This document shows, one piece after another, positions 368 to 18,808 of a stretch of 18,911 nucleotides of DNA. The stretch is taken from NCBI GenBank assembly GCA_024695545.1, contig JAILHZ010000136.1:1-18911 (forward strand), given 5' to 3'. This DNA comes from Clostridiales bacterium. Its GTDB lineage: Bacteria > Bacillota_A > Clostridia > Saccharofermentanales > Saccharofermentanaceae. The position numbers were made by a program, and so were the translations under genes. Under the pieces are notes generated by a model. The model was not told the DNA's origin. It was given only the letters and a program-made list of their open reading frames with translations, and made no database searches. The number at the start of each line of letters is the position of its first letter. The stretch's first letter is position 1.

Positions 368-1429
368 ATGAAAAGAAACAGAATTGCAGCAGGAATCGTG
401 CTGACCATGATATTGAACAGTGCTTTTGCCACGGGATGTGCGGGGAAAAAGACAAAGGATACGGAAGTATCCGGCTCATCTTCCGCTGCCTTCGAAAGTA
501 CGGAAGAGCAGAAGATCATCGAGCCGCCGACGGGAACTACTTCATATTCATCTTCTCCGGAAAGTGCTTCGGAACTGACCGCGCCCTCTACGGAAGAGAC
601 TTCTGCCACGACGTCTGAAACGACGGAAGAAACGACATCGGAGACAACTTCCGCGCCGGCGGATTATCTATCTGAGATCCGTGCGCTGAGAAATAAGATC
701 ACGGAGAATGCGGGATATTATGATTCCCTCGATAACACCATGAAGGAAAGCTGGTGCTTCAAGAGAAAAGAAGACCACTCGGTTTCCGGTTCATACGAAT
801 TCTTTACGATCAAGGACTATAACGGTGCGTATGTCAACGATCACGTGCCGGAAGGGGACAAGGTCATTTATCTGACTTTTGACTGCGGTTATCCGTCCGA
901 CAAGACGGTCGCGATCCTGGATACGCTGAAAAAGCATAATGTGAAGGCGAGCTTCTTCGTTACGAAGATGTACCTCGAAAAGTGCTCGGACTACGCTATC
1001 CGCATGAAGGAAGAAGGCCATATGGTCTGTAACCACACAGTCACCCACTCGGATCTGGTCCCGATGAGCGTTGCAGAGATCGCCAACGAGATCTTCGATA
1101 CGGCGGAGTATTTCTACGAGAAGACGGGATATACGCTCGATCCGTATTTCCGTACGCCGAAGGGAACCTACACAAAGAAGCTGATGACGATCATCAGCGA
1201 TGCGGGATATAAGACGGTGTTCTGGAGTATCGCATACAACGACTACACACCGAGCGCGCAGCCGGAGCCCGGATATGTGCTGGATCACTTCCGGACATAC
1301 CATCACAACGGTGCCATCGCGCTCATGCACAATGACTCCCAGTCAAATGTCAATGAACTGGATGCGGTTCTGACCTACCTGGAAGGCGAAGGATACCGGT
1401 TCGGCCTTCTGGACGAACTGGATCAGTAA
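368..1429 (+). CDS. PdaA-like polysaccharide deacetylase, probable lipoprotein
   Basis: 353 residues. Residues 1-24 form a lipoprotein signal peptide with ATG-C before Cys24; the -3 residue is Ala, so the lipobox is slightly weak. A Ser/Thr/Glu-rich spacer (about 35-97) leads to a NodB-type deacetylase domain (about 165-353). The motifs are TFDCGY (170-175), the HxxxH metal pair His223/His227 in NHTVTH, RTPKG (262-266), VFWS (284-287) and a late His321 in LMHND. Spacing and wording closely follow Bacillus PdaA, the peptidoglycan N-acetylmuramic acid deacetylase of muramic-delta-lactam formation in spore cortex; PdaA has TFDNGY at the first motif. The second Asp of the usual TFDDG is Cys173 here. 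It probably acts on peptidoglycan outside the membrane. The start has GGGAGAGG upstream. Family assignment is firm; the exact substrate is inferred. Confidence 0.85.
   Translation: MKRNRIAAGIVLTMILNSAFATGCAGKKTKDTEVSGSSSAAFESTEEQKIIEPPTGTTSYSSSPESASELTAPSTEETSATTSETTEETTSETTSAPADYLSEIRALRNKITENAGYYDSLDNTMKESWCFKRKEDHSVSGSYEFFTIKDYNGAYVNDHVPEGDKVIYLTFDCGYPSDKTVAILDTLKKHNVKASFFVTKMYLEKCSDYAIRMKEEGHMVCNHTVTHSDLVPMSVAEIANEIFDTAEYFYEKTGYTLDPYFRTPKGTYTKKLMTIISDAGYKTVFWSIAYNDYTPSAQPEPGYVLDHFRTYHHNGAIALMHNDSQSNVNELDAVLTYLEGEGYRFGLLDELDQ
419..427 (+). repeat. Copy 1 of dispersed word AGTGCTTTT
   Basis: Exact copy followed by G, inside the signal-peptide coding part of the deacetylase gene (read as Ser-Ala-Phe). 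Confidence 0.6.
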
Positions 1430-1442
1430 ACGGTTTTTGCCG

Positions 1443-1452
1443 GAAAAGCACT
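1443..1452 (-). repeat. Copy 2 of dispersed word, 10-base form AGTGCTTTTC
   Basis: Minus-strand copy in the 35-base gap between the convergent deacetylase and PqqD-family genes. No convincing terminator is visible in that gap. Confidence 0.6.
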
Positions 1453-1464
1453 GCTGCCCTAAGA

Positions 1465-1731
1465 TTATTCTACGATCGCGTTGATCTTCTTAAGCTCGGA
1501 CAGAGCGCGTGTTACATCTCCCTCGATGACCTCGCGGGGAGCGTCAAACTTCTCCTGCATGGAAGAGATGATCTCTTCCTCGGTAGTATCTTCCTTCAGA
1601 AGATTCAGGATCGCGCCGAAGGTACGGTTCCCGCGGACAACGCCGGAAAAATCCGCATCCGCTACGGGAATGAGAAGATACTCGCCGTCATCTTCCTGGG
1701 TGTGGATCAGAAAATTAGGAGAAAGCTTCAT
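1465..1731 (-). CDS. PqqD-family small protein
   Basis: 88 residues, start ATG 1731-1729 with AGGTAAGGAT just upstream. The pattern is that of the PqqD fold (winged-helix peptide-binding domain, also called RiPP recognition element): an N-terminal beta part with EYLLIPV, a GNRTFGAILNLL helix matching the family's N-x-T-x-x-x-I-x-x-L-L, a TTEEEIISSM helix, a Pro-containing turn and a final helix ending LKKINAIVE. PqqD-like domains bind leader peptides and present them to radical SAM or other modifying enzymes. No such enzyme lies in the window, and the gene sits 20 bases downstream of an exported low-complexity protein with which it is probably co-transcribed. Function unknown; it may be an orphan PqqD of the type common in Clostridia. 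Confidence 0.75.
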   Translation of the reverse strand: MKLSPNFLIHTQEDDGEYLLIPVADADFSGVVRGNRTFGAILNLLKEDTTEEEIISSMQEKFDAPREVIEGDVTRALSELKKINAIVE

Positions 1732-1751
1732 ATCCTTACCTCACGCTTCAA

Positions 1752-2324
1752 TTACTGGACCGGTACGAAAGGAAGCTCGATCGGCTCATCGCCGCCAATG
1801 TTGGAGGACGGAGCAGAAGTAGGCTTGGATGTCGGATCGGTAGTATTTGTATTCTTTGTTTCCTTGTTGTTGCCCGGATCTTTTCCTGTATCGCCCGGAA
1901 CGATGATGACTTCACCCTCGCCATTCATGGACGGCTGCTTCTGCTCGGGCTGTGAACCGCTGGTGGATGAATCCGCAGGGTCGGAAGAATTTGACGGATC
2001 AGCAGTACCGGTACCTGTGGCCGAAGGATCTTTCGTGGAAGAAGGAACGGCTGCATCCGAACTTGCTGAAGGATCAGCAGGTGTTGTTGCATCTCCGGAA
2101 GCGGAAGATGCGGATGACGCATCACTCGGCGGGACGATCGTATTTCCGTCGGCATCAGTTGCAACGGTGGTCGTTGTGATCTCGGAACCGTTAGCATCTG
2201 TTGCAGGTGTATCTTTCTTCTTGCTGCTGCCGCCAAGTGCGAATACCAGCACGAGTACGACGACCAGCACGAGAGCTGCGGCAGCGGATGCGATAATAAT
2301 CAGTTTCTTTTTGTCTAAATTCAT
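1752..2324 (-). CDS. Membrane-anchored Ser/Thr/Pro/Asp-rich protein, unknown function
   Basis: 190 residues, not assigned to a family. Residues 1-7 are charged (MNLDKKK), 8-31 form one hydrophobic membrane helix, and 32-36 are GSSKK-like. From there to about 175 the chain is low-complexity Ser, Thr, Pro, Asp and Ala with no predicted fold, ending in a short conserved-looking tail GGDEPIELPFVPVQ. The topology suggests cytoplasmic N-terminus, one anchor and a flexible extracytoplasmic stalk. The start has GGAG and AAGGA upstream. The PqqD-family gene follows after 20 bases in the same direction, so the pair is likely an operon. Codon use is ordinary. It could be a surface spacer protein or a substrate for modification; nothing in the sequence decides. 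Confidence 0.7.
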   Translation of the reverse strand: MNLDKKKLIIIASAAAALVLVVVLVLVFALGGSSKKKDTPATDANGSEITTTTVATDADGNTIVPPSDASSASSASGDATTPADPSASSDAAVPSSTKDPSATGTGTADPSNSSDPADSSTSGSQPEQKQPSMNGEGEVIIVPGDTGKDPGNNKETKNTNTTDPTSKPTSAPSSNIGGDEPIELPFVPVQ

Positions 2325-2390
2325 ATCCTTAACTCCATTCAGCGGCTTGAAAATGCGCTATTTCAAGGTAGTTCTCAATTAATCTTCACA

Positions 2391-2399
2391 ATTATATCA
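2391..2399 (-). promoter_or_regulatory. Extended -10 promoter of the PqqD-family operon
   Basis: The minus strand reads TGATATAAT at 2399-2391, a TGN-extended consensus -10. The -35 position has only TAGAAA, as expected for an extended -10 promoter. The leader to the ATG at 2324 would be about 60 bases. Confidence 0.6.
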
Positions 2400-2502
2400 T
2401 TCGGAAGAATAGATTTCTACATATATGATAAAAGTCTGGAAATATAAGTAACGCTAATAAAAATGCGCATATATCATATAGATACCGGAAGGCGGAGTGC
2501 GA

Positions 2503-2508
2503 TATAAT
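2503..2508 (+). promoter_or_regulatory. Upstream promoter P1 of the rpsF operon (-10 box)
   Basis: TATAAT with no strong -35. A start near 2515 would begin the transcript exactly at the long hairpin of 2515-2562 and give a leader of about 250 bases. Confidence 0.45.
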
Positions 2509-2514
2509 ACGTTT

Positions 2515-2562
2515 GTCGGACAGTTCCTCCCGGTTTTCGGTGTACGGGAGAACCCGTCAGAC
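2515..2562 (+). promoter_or_regulatory. Long imperfect hairpin at the 5' end of the P1 transcript
   Basis: GTCGGAC (2515-2521) pairs with GTCAGAC (2556-2562) with one mismatch. Then GTTC-C-TCCCG (2523-2532) pairs with CGGGAGAAC (2545-2553) with one bulged C. The loop is 12 bases and no T-run follows, so it looks like a leader structure rather than a terminator. Confidence 0.5.
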
Positions 2563-2625
2563 AGATTCATTTTCTGCCCTTAAGGCGGATAATGAGGTTG
2601 ATTTCTTGCTTTTCGGGCTTTAGGG

Positions 2626-2654
2626 TTGACCGGTCCCGTGACATGTGATATTCT
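2626..2654 (+). promoter_or_regulatory. Main promoter P2 of the rpsF operon
   Basis: TTGACC (2626-2631), an exact 17-base spacer, and TATTCT (2649-2654) preceded by TGA, so the -10 is TGN-extended. The same design recurs at the rplU promoter. The leader would be about 105 bases. Confidence 0.75.
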
Positions 2655-2662
2655 ATCACGTG
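2642..2662. promoter_or_regulatory. Palindrome covering the -10 of P2
   Basis: CATGTGATA and TATCACGTG are inverted around a TTC centre with one mismatch. The element is centred on the -10 hexamer, where a repressor would block polymerase. Confidence 0.4.
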
Positions 2663-2704
2663 CTGCGAAGGATGCAGAGAACATATACATATATGTGAGA
2701 AATA

Positions 2705-2753
2705 TCCTCGCTCTCATCGAAGAAGGTATGAGAGCCGTTCTAGTCCAGGAGGA
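2705..2753 (+). promoter_or_regulatory. Candidate S6:S18 autoregulatory leader element of rpsF
   Basis: GCTCTCAT (2710-2717) and ATGAGAGC (2728-2735) form a perfect 8-bp helix with a 10-base loop. Just outside, TCCTC (2705-2709) can pair with GAGGA (2749-2753) of the Shine-Dalgarno. This leaves a 13-base one-sided bulge (2736-2748) that opens with CCG (2735-2737). In Firmicutes and other bacteria the S6:S18 complex is known to bind an rpsF leader with a bulged CCG. The fit here is by eye. Confidence 0.5.
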
Positions 2754-2764
2754 GGTGAGAAATC

Positions 2765-3052
2765 ATGGCGAACAAGTATGAAATGATGGTTGTTCTGAGC
2801 CCGGTACTCGGTGATGAAGGTATTACTTCTACCACAGAGGCGATCAAGGCTAAGATCGAGTCTGCTGCTACAATCGACTCTATGGAGTCCCTTGGCATGA
2901 AGAAGATGGCTTACGAGATCGAGGATCAGAAGGACGGTTTCTATCTTCTGTTCAACTTCACATCTGATGCCGATTTCCCGAAGGAGATCGAGCGTGTGCT
3001 GAAGATCACAGAAGGCGTACTGCGTTTCCTTGTTATCCGCATTGAGGAGTAA
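2765..3052 (+). CDS. rpsF: Ribosomal protein bS6
   Basis: 95 residues, the usual length. It starts MANKYEMMVVLSP, the family's opening strand, and carries KKMAYEIEDQKDGFYLLFNF followed by the ERVLKITEGVLRFLVIR stretch. S6 is a single-domain protein that pairs with S18 on the platform of the 30S subunit and helps assembly of the central domain. The start ATG follows GGAGGAGG at 2748-2755, partly sequestered by the leader helix. It is the first gene of rpsF-ssb-rpsR, the order found in most Firmicutes, and is probably feedback controlled by S6:S18 through that leader. Confidence 0.97.
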   Translation: MANKYEMMVVLSPVLGDEGITSTTEAIKAKIESAATIDSMESLGMKKMAYEIEDQKDGFYLLFNFTSDADFPKEIERVLKITEGVLRFLVIRIEE

Positions 3053-3076
3053 TTCGGTAAAAAGGGAGTAACGACT

Positions 3077-3562
3077 ATGAACAAAGTTATTTTAATGGGT
3101 AGATTGACCAAAGATCCGGAAGTTAAGCAGACTCCGAGTAATATTGCAGTTTGCTCTTTCACGATCGCATGTGACAGACGCTTTAAGAGCCAGAACGGTG
3201 AACGCCAGTCTGATTTTATCAACTGCGTAGCATGGCGTCAGCAGGCGACTCTTCTCGGAAACTATTTCCACAAGGGTTCCCGTATCGCAGTGGTCGGTTC
3301 CCTGCAGTCCAGAAGCTATGATGATCAGAATGGCCAGAAGAGATATGTGACCGAGGTCGTTGTCGACGAGATCGAATTCGTTGATACACGCGCTGAGGGA
3401 CAGGCTTCCGCACCGGCACAGTCTTCTGCTCCGGCTCCGAGCCAGACGGCTTCCGTTGTCGCACAGACACCGCCGCCGGCACAGCAGATCGATCCCGGTT
3501 TTGAGGCTTCCATGGACTCCGATGACAGTTCACAGCTTCCTTTTGACGTAATGGGTTATTGA
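3077..3562 (+). CDS. ssb: Single-stranded DNA-binding protein with extended C-terminal tip
   Basis: 161 residues. An OB-fold DNA-binding domain spans about 1-104 ([51 protein letters not shown]). A Gln/Pro/Ala/Ser-rich linker covers about 105-140. SSB coats single-stranded DNA as a tetramer and recruits replication and repair proteins through its acidic tail. That tail normally ends in Asp-Asp-x-(Ile/Leu)-Pro-Phe with a free carboxyl. Here the chain reads [10 protein letters not shown] (to Phe156) and then continues DVMGY. Inserting one T after 3544 would end the protein exactly after LPF. The start follows AAGGGAG; the gene lies between rpsF and rpsR as in relatives. Confidence 0.95.
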
Positions 3563-3615
3563 CAGTAGAGGACACCGCATGTGTCCGATATCTTTCGAAA
3601 GGAGATTACATTACT

Positions 3616-3891
3616 ATGGCTGAAAATAGAGCACCTAAGGCACCGGCTCGTGAGTTCGGTGATCGCGGCATGAAGCAGAGACGTTCCAGAAGAAAGGTCT
3701 GCGCTTTCTGTGCTGATAAGGTAGAAATGATCGATTATAAGGATCAGGCTCGTCTTCGCAAGTTCGTATCTGAGCGCGGCAAGATCCTGCCGAAGCGTAT
3801 GACAGGTACCTGTGCGAAGCACCAGAGAGAGCTGACAATTGCGATCAAGCGTGCAAGACACGTTGCACTTCTGCCGTTTGTAGCGGACTAA
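3616..3891 (+). CDS. rpsR: Ribosomal protein bS18, zinc-ribbon (C+) form
   Basis: 91 residues from the ATG at 3616, preceded by AAAGGAG at 3598-3604; a longer reading frame upstream overlaps the ssb stop and has no ribosome binding site. The core [17 protein letters not shown], then [15 protein letters not shown], then [25 protein letters not shown] is diagnostic of S18. Cys29, Cys32, Cys66 and His69 form a likely zinc site, so this is the C+ form; organisms often carry a Cys-free paralogue under Zur control elsewhere. S18 pairs with S6 on the 30S platform. It is the last gene before the terminator at 3931. Confidence 0.96.
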
Positions 3892-3898
3892 TCTTCCG

Positions 3899-3927
3899 TT
3901 TACATAACTGCCTTTACAGTTTATAAT
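3899..3927 (+). promoter_or_regulatory. Promoter of the rplI-dnaB-tilS-hpt-ftsH unit
   Basis: TTTACA (3899-3904), exactly 17 bases, TATAAT (3922-3927). The expected transcription start near 3934 falls inside the left arm of the terminator hairpin that ends rpsR, so transcripts from this promoter cannot form the full hairpin. Confidence 0.75.
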
Positions 3928-3930
3928 GAT

Positions 3931-3966
3931 AAGCACCTGTATTTTGGATACGGGTGCTTATTTTTT
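3931..3966 (+). terminator. Rho-independent terminator after rpsR
   Basis: AAGCACCTGTAT (3931-3942) pairs with ATACGGGTGCTT (3948-3959), 12 pairs with one G-T, loop TTTGG, then A and six T. A second hairpin, TTTTTGCC/GGCAAAAA (3962-3984), overlaps the T-run. Confidence 0.85.
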
Positions 3967-4018
3967 GCCTTTTCACGGCAAAAAGAAGCGAAATCAGAAG
4001 AACCCGGAGGACAAGGAA

Positions 4019-4462
4019 ATGAAGTGTATCTTATTAGCAGACGTCAAGGGTCTGGGCAAGAAGGACGATATTGTCGAGGTAAATGACGGATATGCCAGGA
4101 ATTTCCTTCTGAAAAAGAAACTGGCCTGCGAAGCGACCGCAGACAACATGAATAAGAACAAGCTCAAGAAGGGCTCGGAGGCAGAACATGCACGCCGTGT
4201 TCTCGAGGAAGCCAGAGCCAACGGCAAGCTCCTGGACGGCAAGACCGTTCAGCTCGCGGTCAAGACAGGTGAAGGCGGACGCCTCTACGGTGCCGTAACC
4301 GCGATGGATGTAGCAGATGCTATTAAGAAGGCCGGCTTCGACGTAGATAAGAAGAACGTAATCATCAAGAACCCGATCAAGTCTTTAGGTACTTACGAAG
4401 TGACTGCGAAACTGCATACGCAGGTCAGCGTCAAGGTCAACGTAGAAGTCGTTGCCGAGTAA
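4019..4462 (+). CDS. rplI: Ribosomal protein bL9
   Basis: 147 residues from the ATG at 4019, eight bases after GGAGG (4006-4010). The frame extends back to 3926, but that would start inside the terminator and lacks a ribosome binding site. The N-terminal domain [36 protein letters not shown] is the L9 signature with its rRNA-binding face. A long Lys/Glu/Ala-rich connecting helix follows (about 41-75). The C-terminal domain contains [20 protein letters not shown]9 sits at the base of the L1 stalk of the 50S subunit and helps keep reading frame. Only 10 bases separate it from dnaB, whose ribosome binding site overlaps the rplI stop, a standard rplI-dnaB pairing. Confidence 0.97.
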
Positions 4463-4472
4463 GGAGATACCA

Positions 4473-6215
4473 ATGGCCGGATCCGCAAATAATGACAGAG
4501 CGATCCTGACACGAGTGCCCCCGCAGAATAACGATGCGGAAGTGGCGGTGCTCTGCTGCTGTCTGGATTCCCAGAATACGATCACGACTGTCGCCTCGTA
4601 TCTTGATCCGAGTGACTTTTATACACCGGCTCACCAGAAGATCTATGAGACGATCTATCATCTGTATTCCGAGTCGAAGTCGATCGACCTGATCACGGTC
4701 GGCGATGAACTGAAGAAGCAGGGAGATCTCGAGAAGGTCGGCGGTATGGCGTACTTAAGTACGATCGTCGATGCACATGCGCTTTTGTCGAACCTGTCGG
4801 AGTATATCAACATCGTCCGGCAGAAGTCCATGAGCCGTAAGATCATCAAGTCCATGGAGGATCTGACCCGTCAGACCTACGAGGGAGAGACGGATCCGGG
4901 TAATCTTATCGAGATCGCTATCTCGCGCCTTTCGGAGCTTCGTGACAGTAAGTCGGATGAAGCGCTTGTATCCCTGAAGGAGATCCTTCAGGAGACGGTC
5001 AAGAATATCGTTAACCCGCCGAAGAACCGTGCGGTCATGAGTCACTTTACCATGCTCGATCACGTTACGAACGGATTCCGTCCAGGTACGCTCACGATCG
5101 TTGCCGCCCGTCCTTCTATGGGTAAATCGGCATTCGTTATCAACATTGCCGTTAACGTAGCACTGAAGGATCACCAGCCGGTCGCTTTCTTCAGCCTCGA
5201 AATGAATGGACAGGAGATCGCCAACCGTATCCTCGCTTCGCGCTGTGATATCTCGATCTCGACACTTCAGAACGCCAAGAGGCTCTCTCAGGATGAACTG
5301 GGCAGGATCAACGGATCCATGCCGATGCTGGGAAATACGCCGCTTTATATCGATGAGCATTCGGGCTTAAATACCGCGGAGATCCTGACCCGATGCAGGG
5401 AACTGCAGAACCGTCTCGGAAAGAAGCTCGGTCTGATCTGCATCGACTATCTCCAGCTGATGAATCCGGCGGTAGAACGTAAGAATGCTTCCCGTCAGCA
5501 GGAAGTATCGGATATTTCCCGTGCCCTTAAGCTGATGGCAAAAGAACTGGATGTTCCTGTTATCGCGCTGGCACAGCTGTCCCGTGAATCGGAGAAGCGT
5601 GATGACCACATCCCGGTACTGTCGGACCTACGTGACTCCGGTGCGATCGAGCAGGATGCCGATATGGTTATGTTCATCCATCGTCCAGATTACTATAAGC
5701 ATAAGGATGAGTCCGAAGACGAAGAAGAGAGCACCAAGCAGGAGAAGTTCAAGAGGATCGATAAGGAAGAGATCCAGCGCGCTATGATCGTTGTAGCGAA
5801 GAACCGTCAGGGTCCTACCACGAATATCTTCCTATCCTGGAACGGTTCCAGAACGACCTTCTTTGAAAAGGAGAAGGCGGATCCGAACGCGGCTTCTACA
5901 CCTTCAGATGCCGACGCACCGCCGCCGTGGAGTGATACACCGGTCCCGGATGACCTGTTTACGGATCCGACGCTTCAGATCCCGCAGAAGACGATCGATG
6001 CCCACCATGAAGAGAGTGCTTCTTCAGCGCCTGCAGCGTCTGCGCCTCAGTCCGCAGCTCCGGCACCCGATCCGCTGGATGCGGCTCTGTTCTCCGGAGA
6101 TCCTTCCATGGAGTTTGAATCTCTGGATATGACGGAATGGTCGCAGGATCAGTATGATGAGCCTGCTGAGCCGGGTTACTTTGATGATCCCGGGCAGTTC
6201 CCGGATGGAGTGTAG
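4473..6215 (+). CDS. dnaB: Replicative DNA helicase DnaB with long C-terminal tail
   Basis: 580 residues from the ATG at 4473 (AAGGAG upstream); an in-frame TTG at 4452 is inside rplI and rejected. The N-terminal helical domain (about 15-120, PPQNNDAEVAVL) and a linker helix lead to the RecA-like motor: Walker A ARPSMGKSA (212-220), SLEMN (241-245), Walker B LICIDYLQL with Asp325, RESEKRDDHIPVLSDLRDSGAIEQDADMV from 371, and KNRQGPT (443-449). DnaB is the hexameric helicase that unwinds DNA at the fork and recruits primase. Typical length is 440-460. The excess is an acidic/charged insert (about 409-436) between HRPDYY and the KNRxGPT strand, and a Pro/Ala/Asp-rich tail (about 466-580) with no recognised domain. 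Named dnaC in Bacillus. Confidence 0.96.
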   Translation: MAGSANNDRAILTRVPPQNNDAEVAVLCCCLDSQNTITTVASYLDPSDFYTPAHQKIYETIYHLYSESKSIDLITVGDELKKQGDLEKVGGMAYLSTIVDAHALLSNLSEYINIVRQKSMSRKIIKSMEDLTRQTYEGETDPGNLIEIAISRLSELRDSKSDEALVSLKEILQETVKNIVNPPKNRAVMSHFTMLDHVTNGFRPGTLTIVAARPSMGKSAFVINIAVNVALKDHQPVAFFSLEMNGQEIANRILASRCDISISTLQNAKRLSQDELGRINGSMPMLGNTPLYIDEHSGLNTAEILTRCRELQNRLGKKLGLICIDYLQLMNPAVERKNASRQQEVSDISRALKLMAKELDVPVIALAQLSRESEKRDDHIPVLSDLRDSGAIEQDADMVMFIHRPDYYKHKDESEDEEESTKQEKFKRIDKEEIQRAMIVVAKNRQGPTTNIFLSWNGSRTTFFEKEKADPNAASTPSDADAPPPWSDTPVPDDLFTDPTLQIPQKTIDAHHEESASSAPAASAPQSAAPAPDPLDAALFSGDPSMEFESLDMTEWSQDQYDEPAEPGYFDDPGQFPDGV

Positions 6216-6219
6216 ATAA

Positions 6220-7683
6220 GTGGAAGACCTGATCACTTTGGTCGAAAAGTATATTGAGAAACACCGACTGCTGCCGGCTCCGCTGCTGCTTGTCGGTGTA
6301 TCCGGAGGCGCCGATTCGATGGCGCTTCTGTTCGTTTTAAAGGATATCTGCGACCGTAAATACCCGGATATGCCGATCCTATGCGCACATGTGAACCACG
6401 GGATCCGGGAAGAAGCCGATGCCGATCAGAAAACTGTTTCAGATTTCTGTGACGAACTCGGCATCGCTTTTTTGCCTAAACATGTGGATATTCCCGCGAT
6501 GGCGGAAAAGCAGGGCATCAGTCTGGAAACGGCCGGAAGGATCGCAAGGTACGAGTTCTTCCGCAGTTTTACGGGAGATGACGGAGTCATCGCGGTAGCC
6601 CACCACATGGAGGACCAGGCGGAAAGTATCGCTATGCATATCTTCCGCGGCTGCGGGATGGAAGGACTTTGCGGGATCCGTCCGAAAAATGGTAATGTGA
6701 TCCATCCGTTCCTGGGACTGCATAAGAAAGACATCCTGGAATTCGTCAAATCGAGAGGCATTCCTTTCTGTAACGATGTTACAAACGCTGATATCACTTA
6801 CGATCGGAACTTCCTGAGAAATGAGATCTTCCCGCGTATCGTGACCGGTCTTGACCGGGATCCGGTGGCTGCGCTGACCGGCCTTTCCGAAAGGATCACC
6901 GAGGAAAACGACTATTTGGACGAACTCGCAGCACAGAAACTGGGAGATACGGAAGACCTCGACCGCGAGGAATTTCTTGCCCTGCCGAAAGTCTTGAAAA
7001 GACGAGTGCTCAAACTTCTGGCGATCCGCACATTCGGTGATGTGGTCGATCTGGAAGCATGCCACTGGGATGCAGTTTCAGCCCTGGCGGAAAAGTCTTT
7101 CGGATCCGCATACGTCGATCTTCCGGGAGACCGGGCAGCGGCAAGGGAGGCGGGAAAGATCCGCTTTCTTTCAGGGGAAAGTGCTTTTGACGGGGGAAAA
7201 TCGGGATTTGTTGAAGGCGCAGGCCTGATCATTCCTGAAGATCTGGAAGGGGAGGTACTACCGCTCCGGGATCTGCCTTTAGGAGAAATAGTTAATTTTT
7301 CCCAAAGTTTTGTGTCAATGAGACTCCGCTCCGTTGAGAATGAGGGGCATATAGTATATAATAATTTGACTTGGTTTTTCCCTTCCTCGGTGCTGGGGGA
7401 CACGGTCATCCGGACCAGAAGACAGGGAGATACCATACTCCGGGCCGGGAATACCTGCCATAAGGAATTGCGCCGATTCATGAATGAGGTACATATTCCG
7501 CCGAGGTTCCGGGACCGGATGCTTCTTGTGGCAAAGGGGCAGGAGATCCTGTGGCTACCGGGATTTGCGCACTCCGTAGGCTTTACGGATGCGGAATCTG
7601 AAGGGAAATACAGGGCTATGATATTGGAAAACAAAAGTGAGGAAGATCTCTTCGCTTTAGAGTTTTTCGGGGAGCAGGCGTGA
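6220..7683 (+). CDS. tilS: tRNA(Ile)-lysidine synthetase
   Basis: 487 residues, starting at GTG 6220, four bases after the dnaB stop, with GGAG at 6207-6210 inside dnaB, so translation is probably coupled. The PP-loop SGGADS (28-33) binds ATP; CAHVNHGIREEADAD and the AHHMEDQAES stretch follow in the N-terminal catalytic domain. The C-terminal part carries RTRRQGDTI and the HIPPRFRDRMLLVA substrate-binding region. TilS attaches lysine to C34 of the CAU-anticodon tRNA-Ile, changing its reading from AUG to AUA, and is essential. The order tilS-hpt-ftsH is conserved in Firmicutes. An AT-rich patch at about 7284-7380 contains a promoter-like sequence. Confidence 0.96.
   Translation: MEDLITLVEKYIEKHRLLPAPLLLVGVSGGADSMALLFVLKDICDRKYPDMPILCAHVNHGIREEADADQKTVSDFCDELGIAFLPKHVDIPAMAEKQGISLETAGRIARYEFFRSFTGDDGVIAVAHHMEDQAESIAMHIFRGCGMEGLCGIRPKNGNVIHPFLGLHKKDILEFVKSRGIPFCNDVTNADITYDRNFLRNEIFPRIVTGLDRDPVAALTGLSERITEENDYLDELAAQKLGDTEDLDREEFLALPKVLKRRVLKLLAIRTFGDVVDLEACHWDAVSALAEKSFGSAYVDLPGDRAAAREAGKIRFLSGESAFDGGKSGFVEGAGLIIPEDLEGEVLPLRDLPLGEIVNFSQSFVSMRLRSVENEGHIVYNNLTWFFPSSVLGDTVIRTRRQGDTILRAGNTCHKELRRFMNEVHIPPRFRDRMLLVAKGQEILWLPGFAHSVGFTDAESEGKYRAMILENKSEEDLFALEFFGEQA
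7180..7188 (+). repeat. Copy 3 of dispersed word AGTGCTTTT
   Basis: Exact copy followed by G, inside tilS (Ser-Ala-Phe frame). Confidence 0.6.
7334..7362 (+). promoter_or_regulatory. Candidate internal promoter in tilS for hpt-ftsH
   Basis: TTGAGA (7334-7339), exactly 17 bases, TATAAT (7357-7362), in a locally AT-rich stretch of an otherwise GC-balanced gene. It lies about 340 bases before hpt and could uncouple hpt-ftsH from the upstream block. Confidence 0.45.
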
Positions 7684-10511: not shown

Positions 10512-12245
10512 TCAGCCTGCGTATCTCAGTCCGTAGAATGCTTCGTTCTGATCCTGGGCTCCGATTACGAGATGGTTCCCTTCATTAGAAGCGAAGAGCT
10601 CGACTTCGGTGTTCTTTGTTTCGTCTTCGCCGAGGACCATCAGGCGGATGCGCTTTCCTTCGAGATCCAGACCTGTGCAGTAGCAGGCGGAACCGGCCTT
10701 GATCGTGTATGTGCCGATCTGGTGGCCTTCCTTATCGATCTCGTTGCAGGAGATGTCTACCTTGGCAAATCCGATACCGAACTTGGATCCGAATGCATCT
10801 ACAACGATCGGAAGTCCGCCGTGACTGATCACGGAGCAATTGTAGGAAACCATTCCCGTGCCGAAGAGGTCGGTAAGATGTGAAACCTTGAAGTTGTCCG
10901 GGTCGTAGCAGGATTCATTTCCGAGGTTGCCGATGAAGTAGTTTACATAGGTAAAAGCACTGCCGTTGAAGTTGAATACATAGACGTAAGAATCAGCTTC
11001 CTCCGGGCTGAGCTCGATATATGCATAGAAGCCGGAATCGGTCTTCATGAGTTTCATGCCTACAAAGTACAGACCGCCGTCAACCTCACCGATATCGCCT
11101 GACGGAACTGGAGTCTTGGATGTGCCGTCCAGAACGAGGTTCATATTGATGATGTTGCCATATTCATCTTTTTCGAATTCCGGATAGATCTCTTCCAGCT
11201 TTCCGTCGCCGTTGAGATCCCATGTGATACGGCTGTAGTTGTCACTGGAGAGTGTGTAGTATTTCGGTGTAGCACCGAAGTAGGAAAGATCCAGATAATC
11301 ACCGCAGTACATGGCTGGGATCTTAATGATATCAGCATAGTAACTGTTTGTTTCGGCGCTGACCAGATAGATCGCGTCATAACCGAGAAGGAATTCTACA
11401 TCTGCATTCTCGTTTTTAAGCAGTTCTGCGATCTTCTTTGCACTGTCACCAGTATAATCGTATGCATCGGAATTTGTGACGTACTCGACGATGAAATCCG
11501 CAAATCCGGCTCTGTTAGTTACAACGTCATTGATGTTCAGCGGGCATCCGTCAGAGGAACGGTAGTTGAATGTCTTGATCGAGCCGTTATCAACAGCAGA
11601 ATCGGTATAGTTCTGTGTCATGTAGTAGCTCAGGTATTTAGAGTCGGCACGGAAAATGTGAGTGCGGCTTTCCATGAAATAGTCTTTAGTAAGAGTACCG
11701 CTTTCACTGTTCTTGATAAAGATCGGACGCTGTGTGTCGAATGCGTCGTTGTAAGAAGAATCCAGAGATTCTCCGTTGCCCTGTACACTGTTCCAGAGCT
11801 GCTCGTAACCCTCAATGGTATTTGGGAAGAAGTCGAACTTATCGACGGACTTGTAGATGCAGTGTGCCGGGGCACTCTGATCCTGAGAATCGCCCGTAAT
11901 GGCAACTCTTGGCTCGGAGATCATAAAGAACTGCAGATTCTCCGCATCGCCCTCAGTGATCTTAAAGTCAGAAGAGACGGAATAATCCTTTGGTCTCTTG
12001 GGAGCGGTAAGATCTCTGACAGAAGGACCTTTGGTCTCAGAAGATTCTTCCGTTTCGGAAGAAGTTGCCGAAGTTTCTGATTCGGTCTCGGACTCAGACT
12101 CGGATTCAGATGAAGCTTCTGTTTCGGAAACTTCTGTTGTCGAAGACTCTGTCTCCTCCGTAGTGGTTTCCTTACTCTTTTCCTTACATCCGGCGATCGC
12201 CGTGATCATGGAAAGAGTGAGAAGAATGGCAATCATTTTTTTCAT
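10512..12245 (-). CDS. Lipoprotein A, remote RsiV/DUF3298-like, unknown function
   Basis: 577 residues with perfect AGGAGG before the ATG at 12245. Residues 1-20 are a lipoprotein signal peptide ending AIAGC (Cys20). A Ser/Glu/Thr spacer (about 21-75) includes SESESESETESETS. The folded part has FNYRSSDGCP (226-235), then INDVV, then FLLGYDAIYLV with YYADIIKIPAMY (about 285-313), SYFGATPKYYT, and an Asp-rich WDLNGDGKLEEI loop (342-353) that resembles a calcium-binding repeat. MKTDSGFYAYI and a final GLRYAG follow. The FxY-x-G-x-P-DVV to Y-x-IP layout recalls the DUF3298 domain of RsiV and PdaC, but without a recognisable GGAH motif. It is a paralogue of the gene directly upstream, 64 bases away. 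Function unknown; probably surface exposed. Confidence 0.8.
   Translation of the reverse strand: MKKMIAILLTLSMITAIAGCKEKSKETTTEETESSTTEVSETEASSESESESETESETSATSSETEESSETKGPSVRDLTAPKRPKDYSVSSDFKITEGDAENLQFFMISEPRVAITGDSQDQSAPAHCIYKSVDKFDFFPNTIEGYEQLWNSVQGNGESLDSSYNDAFDTQRPIFIKNSESGTLTKDYFMESRTHIFRADSKYLSYYMTQNYTDSAVDNGSIKTFNYRSSDGCPLNINDVVTNRAGFADFIVEYVTNSDAYDYTGDSAKKIAELLKNENADVEFLLGYDAIYLVSAETNSYYADIIKIPAMYCGDYLDLSYFGATPKYYTLSSDNYSRITWDLNGDGKLEEIYPEFEKDEYGNIINMNLVLDGTSKTPVPSGDIGEVDGGLYFVGMKLMKTDSGFYAYIELSPEEADSYVYVFNFNGSAFTYVNYFIGNLGNESCYDPDNFKVSHLTDLFGTGMVSYNCSVISHGGLPIVVDAFGSKFGIGFAKVDISCNEIDKEGHQIGTYTIKAGSACYCTGLDLEGKRIRLMVLGEDETKNTEVELFASNEGNHLVIGAQDQNEAFYGLRYAG
10953..10961 (-). repeat. 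Copy 4 of dispersed word AGTGCTTTT
   Basis: Minus-strand copy followed by A, inside lipoprotein A (Ser-Ala-Phe frame on the coding strand). Confidence 0.6.
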
Positions 12246-14008: not shown

Positions 14009-14011
14009 CAC

Positions 14012-14038: not shown

Positions 14039-14047
14039 GTATTTGTT

Positions 14048-14057
14048 GAAAAGCACT
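14048..14057 (-). repeat. Copy 5 of dispersed word, 10-base form AGTGCTTTTC
   Basis: Minus-strand copy between the spoVG stop and its terminator hairpin. Confidence 0.6.
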
Positions 14058-14072
14058 AATTTTCGAGGTGTT

Positions 14073-14375: not shown

Positions 14376-14411
14376 GTCTGCCTCCTGATAATACACCCTA
14401 TATACCCGTTA

Positions 14412-14442: not shown

Positions 14443-14467
14443 TCATCATATATTGTCGAAAAAAGGG

Positions 14468-14473
14468 TATAAT
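14468..14473 (+). promoter_or_regulatory. -10 box of the murC unit
   Basis: TATAAT without a clear -35 at the right distance. A start near 14480 would put the palindrome at 14482 at the very 5' end of the message. Confidence 0.5.
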
Positions 14474-14481
14474 AGGAAGGA

Positions 14482-14497
14482 AAATGCGTCCGCATTT
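14482..14497. repeat. Short palindrome in the murC leader
   Basis: AAATGCG and CGCATTT are inverted around TC. It lies just after the likely transcription start and could be an operator. Confidence 0.4.
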
Positions 14498-14559
14498 CAC
14501 CATGGTATCTTTATTTTTTAAGGAATTACCGAATAACCGGTTAATTGGAGAGAAATAGT

Positions 14560-16005
14560 ATGGCAGAAGGTATGAGAGACTTGCCCTCCGGCAAGCGTGT
14601 TTTTTTTGTCGGAATCGGCGGTATCAGCATGAGCGGTCTGGCCCGCATCGCATGTAATTACGGATTGATCGTCGGCGGATCGGATATGCATCCGTCGGAG
14701 CGTACACGTGAACTCGAGGGAATCGGCGTCAAGGTGTACGGTCATCACAGTGAAGAAAATATTAAGGAGTTTGCTCCGGACATCGTCGTACATACTGCGG
14801 CGATCCTTCCCGGCAACCCTGAACTGGACTATTCCAGAAAGAACGGACTTACGGTCATGGAGAGATCTGTGTTCTTAGGTCTGATCACCAGAAACTTCGC
14901 AAACGTGATCAATATCTCCGGAACTCACGGCAAGACCACCACCACTTCGATGGTCTCCCTGATTCTTCTGGAAAGTGGCGCGAATCCGACCGTGCATCTC
15001 GGTGCGGAACTCGATGCTTTTGGCGGAAGTGTGTATCTCGGTTCCAAGGACCAGCTTCTTGTATCGGAAGCGTGTGAGTATCACAGATCGTTCCTGGAGT
15101 TTTACTCCACCATCGCAGCGATCACAAATATCGACTATGACCATGTTGACTGCTACGGCAGCATCGATGAAGTTATCGATGTATTTGCCGAGTTTACCGA
15201 GAAGCTTTCTCCGGAGGGAACGCTCGTTATTCCTGCCGGTGACAAGAATGTGCAGGAGTGTGTGAAGCGTATCCCGGCTTGCCGTGCGAAGGTCGGCATG
15301 GAAGAGCCCAGGATCCTGACGACAGGACTTGAGGGAGAGGGCTTCGGTTTCTTCAAGAGAGAACCGGATTTCTGCGCAGCGAATATCGAGTATAAAGATG
15401 GTAAGGCGGGATTTGATGTCCTCTTCAAGGGACGCCCGTACACACACATCCAGCTCGCGATCCCGGGCACACATAATGTGTACAATGCGCTGACGGCAAT
15501 CGCGTGTGCTTCTCTTGCAGGAGGTACCGCTCAGGCCGCTGCAAAAGCACTGTCCTCCTTTACCGGGGCTGAGGGCCGTTTCACGATCAAGGGTACCTTC
15601 AAAGGTGCGATGGTCGTCACCGATTATGCACATCATCCGAGTGCTGCAAGAGCGACACTCGATGCGGCATCCCATGTACCGCACAATAAGACCTGGGTCG
15701 TTTTCCAGCCGCTGACATTCAGCCGTACAAAAGTGCTTTTCGAGGATTATGTCACATCGCTTCTGCCGTGTGAGGATGTCTTCTTTGATGAGATCTTCTC
15801 CGACCGTGAAGTCAATCCGGGTGATATCTCCTCGAAGGATATCGCGGATGAGATCAACAGAAGAGGCGGACACGCTATCTTCTTCGAGTCGAAGGATGCC
15901 ATCGTGGAGAAGCTTTCTTCCGTCGTGAACAAGGATGACATGATCCTGATCCTCGGGCCGGAGGATATCCGTGCGCTCGGTGACCGTCTGGTCAGCATGG
16001 AGTAA
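14560..16005 (+). CDS. murC: UDP-N-acetylmuramate--L-alanine ligase
   Basis: 481 residues from the ATG at 14560, with TTGGAGAG upstream; an in-frame TTG at 14545 is part of that site. The Rossmann opening FVGIGGISMSGLA (16-28) binds the UDP-sugar, HTAAI closes the first domain, and GTHGKTTT (121-128) is the Mur ligase ATP loop. EACEYHRSFL (170-179), NIDYDHVDCYGS, GTHNVYNALTA (303-313) and DYAHHP (355-360) mark the central and C-terminal domains. The cytoplasmic enzyme adds the first amino acid of the peptidoglycan stem. A membrane protein follows after only three bases, so the two are probably co-translated. Confidence 0.98.
   Translation: MAEGMRDLPSGKRVFFVGIGGISMSGLARIACNYGLIVGGSDMHPSERTRELEGIGVKVYGHHSEENIKEFAPDIVVHTAAILPGNPELDYSRKNGLTVMERSVFLGLITRNFANVINISGTHGKTTTTSMVSLILLESGANPTVHLGAELDAFGGSVYLGSKDQLLVSEACEYHRSFLEFYSTIAAITNIDYDHVDCYGSIDEVIDVFAEFTEKLSPEGTLVIPAGDKNVQECVKRIPACRAKVGMEEPRILTTGLEGEGFGFFKREPDFCAANIEYKDGKAGFDVLFKGRPYTHIQLAIPGTHNVYNALTAIACASLAGGTAQAAAKALSSFTGAEGRFTIKGTFKGAMVVTDYAHHPSAARATLDAASHVPHNKTWVVFQPLTFSRTKVLFEDYVTSLLPCEDVFFDEIFSDREVNPGDISSKDIADEINRRGGHAIFFESKDAIVEKLSSVVNKDDMILILGPEDIRALGDRLVSME
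15543..15551 (-). repeat. Copy 6 of dispersed word AGTGCTTTT
   Basis: Minus-strand copy followed by G, inside murC (coding strand reads Lys-Ala-Leu). Confidence 0.6.
15732..15741 (+). repeat. Copy 7 of dispersed word, 10-base form AGTGCTTTTC
   Basis: Exact copy inside murC in a different frame from copies 1 and 3 (Val-Leu-Phe). Confidence 0.6.
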
Positions 16006-16008
16006 CTG

Positions 16009-17562
16009 ATGAAGAAGACCCGACGGCTCCGCATCATCTGCGTTATTCTTCTTGCAGTGATACTGATCGTATCGTCGCTTTTTATCCTGCTCCCGAGAAG
16101 AAATGACGGATCGACGGGACGCGCGGCGCTGATGTTCGTCCATGAAGATATCATGTTTCCGCAGATGGACTACAGCCAGCTCTTCTCGCAGCTGGATGTC
16201 TCTTCGTACTTCGTGATCGACAGTTCCTGTCCGGAAGAACAGATGAGGAAGAAGATCGACAAAGTGCTGCGTTCGGACTCGGTAGGATCTGTTGTGCTGA
16301 TCCTCGAAGGAGACTATGCAAAGTCCGGTTTTACTATCGCATCGGAAAATGAGAAGATCTCGGATCTTGTCCTGATCTGCCCGAAGATGGATGTATCTGA
16401 ATTCGGCGAGATCGGAACAAAGGATCCTTCCTGCCGTGTCGCGATATTCTCCGTGCAGAACCAGTCCGTGGATGCGCTCTATGAGAGACTGTCCGGCGAG
16501 GATACGAAGTTTACTTCAGGTACGAAGGCAAGCGGATCGGCACCGGAACTTTTCCTGTCGTCGGACGCGAAGCGTTACTATGCGAGAAAAGGTGACAGAA
16601 GCGACCAGCAGATCGCATCTGTTCTCACGATCAACAGCCCCGTCATGCAGACATATATGGCGAACTACATTAAGAACTATGTTCTGGAAGAAGACGGCGT
16701 CTCGAACGGCCCGCTTCTGACATGGGTCATGAAGACGGTCTGTACGATTCTGACGATCGTTGCATTCTTCCTTTATGCCGCGACACTTCCGGCGAATAAG
16801 AAGTTTGTTCCGGTGAACGGAAAAGAACCGGGAAAAGATCCTTCCGCTCCGACTGAAGAAGGTGAGCCCGTGAAGCGTGAGCGCGGCCGTGACGGCAAGA
16901 TCCGCGGACGCTCCATTGCAGATAAATACAGAAGTTCACTGAATCATCTTCTGGCGCTGCAGATATTCCTCGGCGGCATCATCAGCCTTCCGGCGATGTA
17001 TCTTGTTGCGAATAAAAAGACATCCTTTCATATCGTGCTGCTTCTGTGGATCTGTGTGTCACTCCTGAGCTCGGCATTCTTCCTCCTTCCTTTTGTCCGG
17101 AAGATAAAGAACAGAAAGGTCAGATCCAACCGCTCCATGTGGCAGATCCATATGCTGTTTACAGCACTCCTTGCCGCGGCAGTATTCATGCTGACACTGC
17201 TGTGGAAAGGCGCCGGATTCTTAAAGCCGGACATCATGCTGCTGGTGGCGCTTCTGCTTTCTGTAATGACCGGCATGGCGATGTTCACACTGCAGCTTGC
17301 CGACAATTTCTTCGGAAGGATCCAGGGAACACGACAAAGTGTTCTTGATTCCGTAAAATTTTCCGCGATACGTTTCGTTCCGATGGTGATTGTTTTCGTT
17401 TTCTCGATTATAATAGATAGAGGACTATGTGCTATGCAGATCCTCTTGCTGGCATTATCCCTGCTGGTGGCATCGTTCATGCGCAGGATAATCAAGAGAG
17501 GCGCTCTGGGGGAGACACTGTCCGTAGTTTTATATTCATGCCTTTATTGGATGATGTTTTGA
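16009..17562 (+). CDS. Polytopic membrane protein with an extracytoplasmic alpha/beta-like domain, unknown function
   Basis: 517 residues, not recognised. Start ATG three bases after the murC stop with GGAG inside the murC end. Residues 8-29 are a signal-anchor helix. About 35-230 form a soluble domain with alternating hydrophobic strands (VGSVVLILEG, ISDLVLICP, CRVAIFSVQ), which resembles an alpha/beta-hydrolase core, but the nucleophile elbow G-x-S-x-G is not visible. A membrane helix (236-259) is followed by a charged cytoplasmic-like loop (260-312, KRERGRDGKIRGR). Six or seven further helices follow at about 313-334, 341-362, 380-400, 407-430, 453-470, 472-491 and possibly 499-517. Placement after murC suggests an envelope role. 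A weak -10 (17409-17414) near its end might serve the next gene. Confidence 0.75.
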   Translation: MKKTRRLRIICVILLAVILIVSSLFILLPRRNDGSTGRAALMFVHEDIMFPQMDYSQLFSQLDVSSYFVIDSSCPEEQMRKKIDKVLRSDSVGSVVLILEGDYAKSGFTIASENEKISDLVLICPKMDVSEFGEIGTKDPSCRVAIFSVQNQSVDALYERLSGEDTKFTSGTKASGSAPELFLSSDAKRYYARKGDRSDQQIASVLTINSPVMQTYMANYIKNYVLEEDGVSNGPLLTWVMKTVCTILTIVAFFLYAATLPANKKFVPVNGKEPGKDPSAPTEEGEPVKRERGRDGKIRGRSIADKYRSSLNHLLALQIFLGGIISLPAMYLVANKKTSFHIVLLLWICVSLLSSAFFLLPFVRKIKNRKVRSNRSMWQIHMLFTALLAAAVFMLTLLWKGAGFLKPDIMLLVALLLSVMTGMAMFTLQLADNFFGRIQGTRQSVLDSVKFSAIRFVPMVIVFVFSIIIDRGLCAMQILLLALSLLVASFMRRIIKRGALGETLSVVLYSCLYWMMF

Positions 17563-17580
17563 CCGGGGAGGATAGGGCCT

Positions 17581-18588
17581 ATGTCATCTACGATTAAAGA
17601 CGTTGCTAAAATGGCGGGAGTTTCCATTTCGACGGTTTCCAAGTTTATTAACGGAGGAAACGTTCTCGAGGAGAACCGCGCCCAGATCGAACAGGCGATC
17701 GAGACTCTGAATTATCAGGTCAATACGGTCGCGCGCGGCATGAAGACCAGAAAGACCATGTCGATCGGTGTGCTGATTCCGAGTCTTGCGGACTACTATG
17801 GCGTATCGATCCTTTCCTATATTGACCAGGAGCTCTACGCCAACGGATACAGTATGATCATCTGTGATTACAATCAGGGCGATCCGACAGGCGCTTCTGA
17901 TAAAATCAATTTCCTTATTAACAAGCAGGTCGACGGCATCATCATGCAGCCGATGAACGTGCGCCAGGAAGATATCGACCGCGCGACGAAAGCAGATGTT
18001 CCGATCGTTTTCGTTGATATGGAGTATCCGGCAATCTCCTGCGATTCCGTCACCATCGATAATGTCGACATCGCATACCGCATCACGAAGCACCTGATCG
18101 ATAACGGTCACAACCGGATCGGTTTCATCGGCGGTACCTCGGGATTTATCACGACGGATGACCGTGTGACGGGATATAAGAAGGCTCTCGATGAGGCGGG
18201 GATCACGCTTGATCAGGATCTCCTCTATCTCGAGAATGTCTCAGAAGAGAGCGGCTATATAGCCATGATGCACTTCATGCAGAGAAAGTATAAGCCGACA
18301 GCTGTCTTTGCCAGCGGCAATGACCTTACCTGCGGCGCTGTAATGTATATCAACGAGAAGAAGCTGGTAATCCCGGACGATGTATCTTTCGTCGGATTTG
18401 AGAACCAGACGATCGCACATGTGTATAACCCGACTCTGACCATCGGTATCCAGCCGATCAGAAAGATCGGACAGACGGCGGTCCGCATGCTCCTCGAGAG
18501 AATGAAGGAAGAGTACACGGGCGAGCCGAGAAATGTGCGTCTCAAGGCTGTCATTGATTTCGGCGCCTCGGTGAAGAAGATCAAATAA
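17581..18588 (+). CDS. LacI-family transcriptional regulator
   Basis: 335 residues, the usual size; GGGGAGG precedes the ATG. The N-terminal helix-turn-helix TIKDVAKMAGVSISTVSKFIN (4-24) binds DNA, followed by the hinge (about 47-60, VNTVARGM). The periplasmic-binding-protein-like sensor domain starts MSIGVLIPSLADYYG and includes DGIIMQPM, IDNVDIAYRITKHLIDNGHNRIGFIGG, DRVTGYKKALDEAGI, AVFASGNDLTCGAVMYI and DDVSFVGFENQ. Such proteins usually repress sugar or nucleoside genes and respond to a small ligand. None of the neighbours is a sugar gene, so its targets are not apparent. It lies 18 bases after the membrane protein in the same direction. No canonical terminator follows. Confidence 0.94.
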   Translation: MSSTIKDVAKMAGVSISTVSKFINGGNVLEENRAQIEQAIETLNYQVNTVARGMKTRKTMSIGVLIPSLADYYGVSILSYIDQELYANGYSMIICDYNQGDPTGASDKINFLINKQVDGIIMQPMNVRQEDIDRATKADVPIVFVDMEYPAISCDSVTIDNVDIAYRITKHLIDNGHNRIGFIGGTSGFITTDDRVTGYKKALDEAGITLDQDLLYLENVSEESGYIAMMHFMQRKYKPTAVFASGNDLTCGAVMYINEKKLVIPDDVSFVGFENQTIAHVYNPTLTIGIQPIRKIGQTAVRMLLERMKEEYTGEPRNVRLKAVIDFGASVKKIK

Positions 18589-18625
18589 GGAAAGCCGGCC
18601 CGACGTGTCTTGTGCCGGGGGGAGA

Positions 18626-18635
18626 AGTGCTTTTC
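18626..18635 (+). repeat. Copy 8 of dispersed word, 10-base form AGTGCTTTTC
   Basis: Intergenic copy between the LacI-family gene and the rplU promoter. Confidence 0.6.
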
Positions 18636-18685
18636 TATATATATAAATATTTATGCTTGACGTACTCTTGATCGCATGGTATTCT
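18636..18685 (+). promoter_or_regulatory. rplU promoter with AT-rich UP-like element
   Basis: TTGACG (18657-18662), exactly 17 bases, TATTCT (18680-18685) with TGG before it, giving an extended -10. A 20-base run of A and T (18636-18655) lies directly upstream, as in strong ribosomal-protein promoters. Confidence 0.8.
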
Positions 18686-18691
18686 ATTTCG

Positions 18692-18808
18692 GTGACCGCA
18701 TGTGCCGGGCTCCTAAATCTGTGCCTTTTTTTAGTGCTTTTCGCACGGAGAAGCTACAGTGCCTAGGATTAGACAGCGAGACTGGATGAACAGGAGGGAA
18801 ACGTTTTT
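18692..18808 (+). promoter_or_regulatory. rplU leader, candidate L21 autoregulatory element
   Basis: About 117 untranslated bases separate the predicted start from rplU. CTCC (18710-18713) and GTGC (18721-18724) can pair with the adjacent GCAC (18743-18746) and GGAG (18747-18750), with a bulged TAAATCT. A leader RNA upstream of rplU is a known Firmicute element; agreement with its consensus was not tested. Confidence 0.5.
18733..18742 (+). repeat. Copy 9 of dispersed word, 10-base form AGTGCTTTTC
   Basis: Lies in the rplU leader, 107 bases after copy 8 in the same orientation, so the two flank the rplU promoter. Confidence 0.6.

Follow-up and report, generated by a model that had tools for sequence, protein, structure and literature searches.

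In this study, we analysed an 18,911-nt stretch of the genome of a Clostridiales bacterium (contig JAILHZ010000136.1, assembly GCA_024695545.1; hereafter the window) together with related genomes, focusing on a short dispersed word, AGTGCTTTT, with nine copies in the window. It is a real, genus-specific signal at the level of DNA, and it is nearly certain that it has been selected or driven. In our view AGTGCTTTT probably forms the core of a DNA uptake signal which works like the uptake signal sequence (USS) of Pasteurellaceae and the DNA uptake sequence (DUS) of Neisseriaceae, and which originated separately in Clostridia. The first-pass annotation of the window had offered the word as a candidate uptake or recognition sequence, and our results support that proposal; counts at the level of a Markov model, an origin in codon bias and a mobile repeat all failed to appear.

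The nine exact copies, on both strands, were all confirmed at the positions and strands given by the first-pass annotation, whereas 200 dinucleotide shuffles of the window averaged 0.07 copies and never held more than one. AGTGCTTTT, counted with its reverse complement, ranked first in frequency among the window's 9-mers, and its inner 8-mers AGTGCTTT and GTGCTTTT occurred nine times each, always inside the 9-mer. It had also been described that five of the nine copies extend with C, that four are intergenic and that the coding copies use different frames. These descriptions held, the intergenic placement by the open reading frame (ORF) table, and the coding copies comprised three read as Ser-Ala-Phe, one as Val-Leu-Phe and one antisense in murC (Table 1).

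Genome-wide counts were made in relatives of the source genome, the nearest of which (G001, 2.6 Mb) shares 25% of the window's sampled 31-mers. This genome contained 871 copies of AGTGCTTTT (422 + 449 on the two strands), and 35 (16 + 19) of the reversed word. All 23 genomes of that genus carried the word, with 127–984 copies each or, with rounded genome sizes, 51–361 per Mb, whereas 165 genomes from 29 genera in the rest of the order carried 0–62 copies, at most ∼23 per Mb. The ratio of the word to the reversed word ranged within the genus from 3.1 (G010) to 27 (G006). This control is rough, because the reversed word is so rare in some genomes of sister genera (30 vs. 2 in G094) that a low count can give a high ratio, and the genus is therefore separated by copy number and not by ratio. 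In stretches of 291–373 kb from three genomes of the genus (G001, G019, and G004), AGTGCTTTT was the most over-represented 9-mer relative to an order-4 Markov model, with 98 copies observed vs. 7.9 expected, 142 vs. 12.6 and 76 vs. 7.5, respectively, a 10–12 fold excess. One-letter variants were in excess as well (230 vs. 136, 300 vs. 181 and 199 vs. 118 in the three genomes), chiefly owing to a few words such as GGTGCTTTT and AGTTCTTTT. The closest relatives of the window's TilS protein (L031–L050) came from metagenome-assembled genomes (MAGs), many of them of rumen or other ruminant gut, labeled Clostridiales, Clostridia, Ruminococcaceae, Mageeibacillus sp. or Candidatus Scatonaster; RUG251 was the closest, with 99% identity in TilS, and more distant matches included Lachnospiraceae. 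Among these loci the trait was patchy, since the more distant loci L045–L048 were rich in the word (31 copies in 65 kb) and L038, L040, L044, and L049 had none.

The word sits at the core of a longer motif, GGnmAGTGCTTTTssmGnAGnA (∼22 bp). A like extension, lying mostly downstream of the core, was found in G001, G019, and G004; with the core numbered 0–8, its columns were G at −4/−3, A or C at −1, then C/G, C/G and A/C, G at +12, A at +14, G at +15 (frequency 0.63–0.66 in the three genomes) and A at +17 (0.59–0.60). Past about +17 only single weak columns were seen, reaching ∼+30 in some genomes (for example, G at +30 in G004), and repeat-like conservation around the core was not seen in the three genomes. 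Iterated weight matrices of 18.7–19.7 bits, with thresholds set so that matches in the Markov control were at most 10% of the real count, were run on G001 (291 kb), G019 (373 kb), and G004 (338 kb) and recovered 186, 301, and 126 sites, respectively, compared with 16, 23, and 11 sites in order-5 Markov controls of equal size. Although the training stretches do not align to the window, the G001 matrix gave a positive flank score to seven of the nine window copies vs. 11% of random positions (P = 6e-6), and the two copies lacking the flank were those at 14049 and 18626.

In addition, the word occurs in dialects, AGTGCTTTT, RGTGCATTT and AGTTCTTTT, which are accompanied by a like flank. G011 has few copies of AGTGCTTTT and carries RGTGCATTT with a like flank instead (GTGCATTT, 81 vs. 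14.3 expected). Genome-wide, RGTGCATTT numbered 596 in G011, 478 in G017 and 504 in G012, and 31–118 in the other 20 genomes of the genus; G012 and G017 hold ∼400 copies of AGTGCTTTT besides. In G010, G021, and G022, AGTTCTTTT outnumbered AGTGCTTTT (213, 298, and 229 vs. 154, 233, and 200), with controls for AGTTCTTTT of 46, 78, and 55, respectively. G008 had 135 copies of AGTGCTTTT and 54 of AGTTCTTTT, the latter near its control of 42, and a matrix pooled from G008, G021, and G022 (71 sites) showed T or G at the dialect position with a like flank. A single-letter shift across hundreds of sites has the look of the uptake sequence dialects of Neisseriaceae (PMC3630211). In genomes of sister genera (G031 and G034; L186–L201), CTTTTCGA was over-represented on both strands (61 vs. 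25.5 and 29 vs. 5.1, respectively) and might represent another, weaker signal; a matrix search seeded with it returned 21 sites, which is the floor of the procedure, so that we claim no sister-genus counterpart of the word. The matrix that was started from CTTTTCGA in G010 came to track coding periodicity and was not used further.

The placement of the copies was analysed with 316 exact sites in 1.0 Mb of stretches from the genus, using gene calls from a simple in-house ORF scorer that gave coding fractions of 0.875–0.880. Intergenic DNA, approximately 12.3% of the total, held 84 of the 316 sites, an about twofold enrichment (P = 6e-12); 229 sites lay within genes and three on gene edges. Among the 228 coding sites with an assigned frame, 124 were sense and 104 antisense. 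The frames were restricted, with sense-0 (65), sense-2 (52) and antisense-2 (79) well represented, and antisense-0 (17), antisense-1 (8) and sense-1 (7) less so. Placement is thus a matter of the DNA, bounded by what the proteins tolerate. Polarity was counted for the 218 of 316 sites in stretches of at least 8 kb where GC skew and gene strand agreed. No overall replication polarity was found, with a leading to lagging ratio of 117 : 101 for exact sites (34 : 34 in G001, 48 : 50 in G019) and, when G011 was added, of 267 : 260 for matrix sites (P = 0.79), while genes of the same stretches were distributed 491 : 69. Spacing of the copies was near random, with coefficients of variation (CV) of 0.87–1.16, and word density set against the GC content of the stretches gave rho of 0.44, 0.15, and 0.56 (P = 0.07, 0.54, and 0.02).

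Coding copies at orthologous places, compared among the window and 13 related loci, were kept far beyond other 9-mers of the same gene and frame. Identical pairs numbered 43 of 159 vs. 11.0 expected at gene identities of 60–75%, 90 of 133 vs. 21.3 at 75–85%, 39 of 46 vs. 16.2 at 85–95% and six of seven vs. 5.2 above 95%; these bands hold 345 of 348 pairs, the other three being of lower identity, and the pairs, having species and sites in common, do not count as independent. Restricted to the window, the comparison gave 20 identical pairs out of 41 vs. 6.7 expected. Variants in aligned relatives were mostly substitutions in place, as has likewise been described for USS (PMC7811141). We also noticed two stretches of foreign appearance with no exact word, vs. 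8.9 expected for both together. By inspection, one (L100) carries type I restriction-modification genes and an integrase, and the other (L109) two serine recombinases and a relaxase; no other searched stretch carried genes like these. Two further stretches of low density, L098 and L104, had two words each, and L104 resembles ordinary chromosome. A search of 15 genomes of the genus for the phage portal family gave no match, and conjugation coupling proteins gave 10 matches in seven of the 15.

The pilT-like gene which the first-pass annotation had placed at the window edge is real. The 40-residue piece in the window had no Pfam match by itself; its full counterparts in L031–L034 are ORFs of 356–361 codons, and the L031 copy matched TIGR01420 at 423.9 bits (cut-off, 319.1). 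The T2SSE ATPase family was present in all 33 genomes searched (23 of the genus and 10 of sister genera), usually as a PilB–PilT tandem with further copies, the tandem being missing from the G012 draft. ComEA was found in 32 genomes, all but G018, and ComEC in 31, all but G002 and G018, whose drafts are 89 and 88% complete, respectively. Pilus loci that include prepilin genes were identified in 16 of the 23 genomes of the genus. Specifically, the loci of G004 and G001 encode a prepilin peptidase, PilB, PilT, PilC, PilM, PilN, a PilO-like protein, small pilins and two minor pilins of ∼170–180 residues, and in G001 a PilX-like protein of ∼665 residues lies on the opposite strand; apart from PilB, PilT and the prepilins, these names are presumptive assignments from gene order and sequence. 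PilT-family membership holds both for the PilT encoded next to the pilus operon and for that at the window's edge.

From the word, its flank, distribution, conservation and dialects, together with the genes for the pilus, ComEA and ComEC, all observed here, we infer that the word drives DNA uptake, and with it preferential binding, a receptor and molecular drive. Cells of this rumen clostridial genus would bind extracellular double-stranded DNA with a type IV pilus retracted by PilT, a minor pilin of which would prefer DNA bearing GGnmAGTGCTTTTssmGnAGnA; ComEA and ComEC would then import one strand, which would recombine with the chromosome. We propose that point mutations towards the word would spread through the population by molecular drive, because fragments bearing it would be taken up and recombined more often, and that the exact word would build up to one per 3–20 kb at permissive places on both strands. 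A shift of receptor specificity in a lineage would be followed by the word, which may have given rise to the dialects. On balance, we lean slightly towards a third, separate origin of sequence-tagged uptake, in Gram-positive rumen anaerobes, with one of the two larger minor pilins as the reader. One candidate (L226:4950-5486, minus strand) showed weak similarity to ComGD (21.8 bits, under the cut-off of 70). ComGD is the monoderm counterpart of FimT, and in Streptococcus pneumoniae its conserved charged residues were described as minor in uptake, other residues mattering more (PMC12040237). The other candidate (L226:5504-6019, minus strand) had 39 relatives in a protein search, 38 of them with a prepilin domain and the named ones being Clostridiales MAGs; among 27 aligned sequences two cysteines of its C-terminal region were invariant and a third nearly so, in a zinc-ribbon-like arrangement. 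Its AlphaFold model had a mean pLDDT of 72 and a pTM of 0.48. A Foldseek search of the PDB with this model returned nothing at E ≤ 0.001, and weak matches including the zinc ribbons 1tfi and 1qyp (E ∼4) were not used as evidence.

Comparison with known systems showed likenesses to both families of uptake words. Similar to the Pasteurellaceae USS (Hin type AAGTGCGGT), which is taken up by a type IV pilus, the present word has a core of 9 bp whose weaker extension lies mainly to one side, copies of the order of 10^3 on both strands, variants and lineage types. AAGTGC is common to USS and to the frequent 10-mer form found here (AAGTGCTTTT), perhaps by chance. However, this is not USS proper, since the host is clostridial, the core is other than AAGTGCGGT or ACAAGCGGT (PMC3630211) and the flank is mGnAGnA rather than A/T tracts (PMC7811141). 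In Pasteurellaceae, uptake sites are biased to gene ends (PMC2346458), a bias absent here, and the minor pilin ComN has been predicted, with modelling of protein–DNA complexes, as the USS receptor (PMC12616744). Like the DUS of Neisseriaceae, the present word is common to relatives and has dialects (PMC3630211); DUS, also mentioned for Neisseria in PMC12236230, is taken up through a type IV pilus in which a minor pilin binds DNA (PMC6370729, PMC12040237). The DUS, whose receptor is ComP, is nevertheless an unrelated word, and by word, flank or host ours belongs to neither family. A clostridial parallel is offered by the type IV pili of Clostridioides difficile, whose pilin subunits PilJ and PilW bind DNA; no conditions for natural competence in that species are known (PMC9556784). 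Neisseriaceae and Pasteurellaceae were named as the exceptions with uptake words (PMC7811141), and the surveyed portions of the open-licence PMC literature, a scope that leaves subscription papers and preprints aside and makes this weak evidence, contained no report of an uptake word elsewhere.

Several observations weigh against an uptake signal. Gene-end bias was not merely absent but slightly reversed, the outer 20% of genes containing 69 of 448 sites where 90 were expected. Frequent inverted pairs between genes are a feature of neisserial DUS, and such pairs were few here: among the 316 sites only seven pairs lay within 60 bp of each other, six of them inverted. By the same count the word is not mainly a terminator stem, and a reading as paired terminators was rejected. 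Strand use was uneven in places, in that exact sites of G004 leaned to the leading strand (35 : 17, P = 0.018) and coding sites of the G011 dialect leaned to the sense strand (67 : 36, P = 0.003). All 10 genomes examined from sister genera have the same pilus, ComEA and ComEC genes and lack the word, and N_methyl prepilin matches were not higher in the genus (5–7 in 11 genomes) than in sister genera (1–13 in seven genomes); orphan prepilins of ∼245–278 residues were also seen in this count. The machinery is required for the uptake reading, yet by itself it does not explain why the word is restricted to the genus. Finally, the apparent scarcity of the word in foreign DNA comes from the two stretches L100 and L109, which were picked after the fact for their low counts.

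Other explanations fit worse, including those raised by the first-pass annotation, namely a Chi-like site, a chromosome-organisation site and local word bias. Chi sites halt an AddAB/RecBCD-type helicase-nuclease and start recombination; they are dispersed, asymmetric and lineage-specific words of similar density (here, in the densest genomes, ∼1 per 3 kb) and are enriched on the leading strand. The lean of G004 agrees with such a role. The overall leading preference is nevertheless absent for exact and matrix sites alike in stretches whose genes are strongly polarized, single genomes lean either way by matrix sites (56 : 34 in G004, 56 : 79 in G001), and neither the weak downstream flank of ∼9 bp, which makes the motif longer, nor the twofold intergenic excess is expected for a short Chi; we therefore regard a Chi-like site as quite unlikely. 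A binding site for a chromosome-organising or segregation protein of the Noc, MatS, KOPS, or SMC type would explain hundreds of dispersed copies held at their places. It seems equally improbable, as the motif is neither palindromic nor polar overall, spacing is near random, copies sit within genes in restricted frames, and one-letter dialects would require the protein and hundreds of sites to shift together.

A mark of self DNA, read by a defence or modification system that attacks DNA without the word, would account for the over-representation, the dialects and the scarcity in the two foreign-looking stretches; no system of this kind that joins a 9-bp core to such a flank is known to us, and we give this idea only a slim chance. 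Ordinary word bias is hardly credible, whether it came from codon usage, from a protein motif or from a short mobile repeat. The predominance of Ser-Ala-Phe, Val-Leu-Phe and antisense frame 2 would suit it, but the near balance of sense and antisense copies and the richer intergenic DNA rule out a codon or protein-motif origin, conservation around the core is not repeat-like, variants in aligned relatives are mostly substitutions in place, and the word is scarce in the order's other genera.

The window itself is an ordinary chromosomal region. Besides the PilT-family gene cut by its left edge, it contains genes for a polysaccharide deacetylase, a PqqD-like protein, a DnaB helicase, tilS, a phosphoribosyltransferase (hpt-like), murC and a lacI-family regulator, along with genes which we take from their sequences, rather than from a family search, to be rpsF, ssb, rpsR, rplI, ftsH and, at the right end, rplU. 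Rfam gave no family in the window at gathering scores, and a reading of the word as an RNA element is not supported. The segment 18589–18809 holds two word copies within 108 bp 5′ of the presumed rplU and had no Rfam match at the gathering score; ribosomal protein L21 leaders are expected upstream of rplU. GATC-containing words were very frequent among the top 6- to 9-mers of the window.

Table 1. Copies of the word and the pilus gene in the window, with flank scores from the G001 position weight matrix (PWM) and identity in aligned relatives.
Feature	Position	Strand	Context	Flank score (bits)	Identical/aligned relatives
Word copy 1, AGTGCTTTT	419..427	+	Polysaccharide deacetylase gene, frame Ser-Ala-Phe	+6.8	4/5
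Word copy 2	1444..1452	-	Intergenic	+1.9	0/5
Word copy 3	7180..7188	+	tilS, frame Ser-Ala-Phe	+6.6	5/13
Word copy 4	10953..10961	-	Lipoprotein-like gene, frame Ser-Ala-Phe	+2.1	0/7
Word copy 5	14049..14057	-	Intergenic, core without flank	-10.8	2/6
Word copy 6	15543..15551	-	Antisense in murC	+7.3	6/8
Word copy 7	15732..15740	+	murC, frame Val-Leu-Phe	+2.8	5/8
Word copy 8	18626..18634	+	Intergenic, 3′ of lacI-family gene	-0.9	0/1
Word copy 9	18733..18741	+	Intergenic, 5′ of ORF start taken for rplU	+1.0	0/1
PilT-family type IV pilus retraction ATPase, N-terminal 40 residues	2..121	-	Cut by window edge; full counterparts in L031–L034		

Other repeated words were met in the relatives. In G019 (L106–L125) a second over-represented family centred on TTTCCGACTTAAA (TTCCGACTTA, 22 vs. 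0.9 expected), which may be a short repeat because it left the list of top words once similar contexts were removed. TTCACCCGTAAT/ATTACGGGTGAA was repeated in L045–L048 and in G004 (L088–L105), the 12-mer nine times in the G004 stretches, and TTACGGGTGA occurred 12 times in the 65 kb of L045–L048. A GCTGCTAAGAAGG-type word, with several copies in 80 kb of G022 (L162–L165 and L214–L215) mostly at one or two loci, is probably a local repeat.

If AGTGCTTTT is indeed the core of an uptake signal, natural transformation would be implied among uncultured rumen Clostridia, and the one-letter dialects would isolate co-resident species genetically. A Gram-positive case would mean that self-tagged uptake arises repeatedly in evolution, with no need of an outer membrane. 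The 23 related genomes with their dialects provide material for finding the receptor by co-variation. In addition, tagged DNA might serve to transform a gut group that is hard to handle, which would give the word a practical use.

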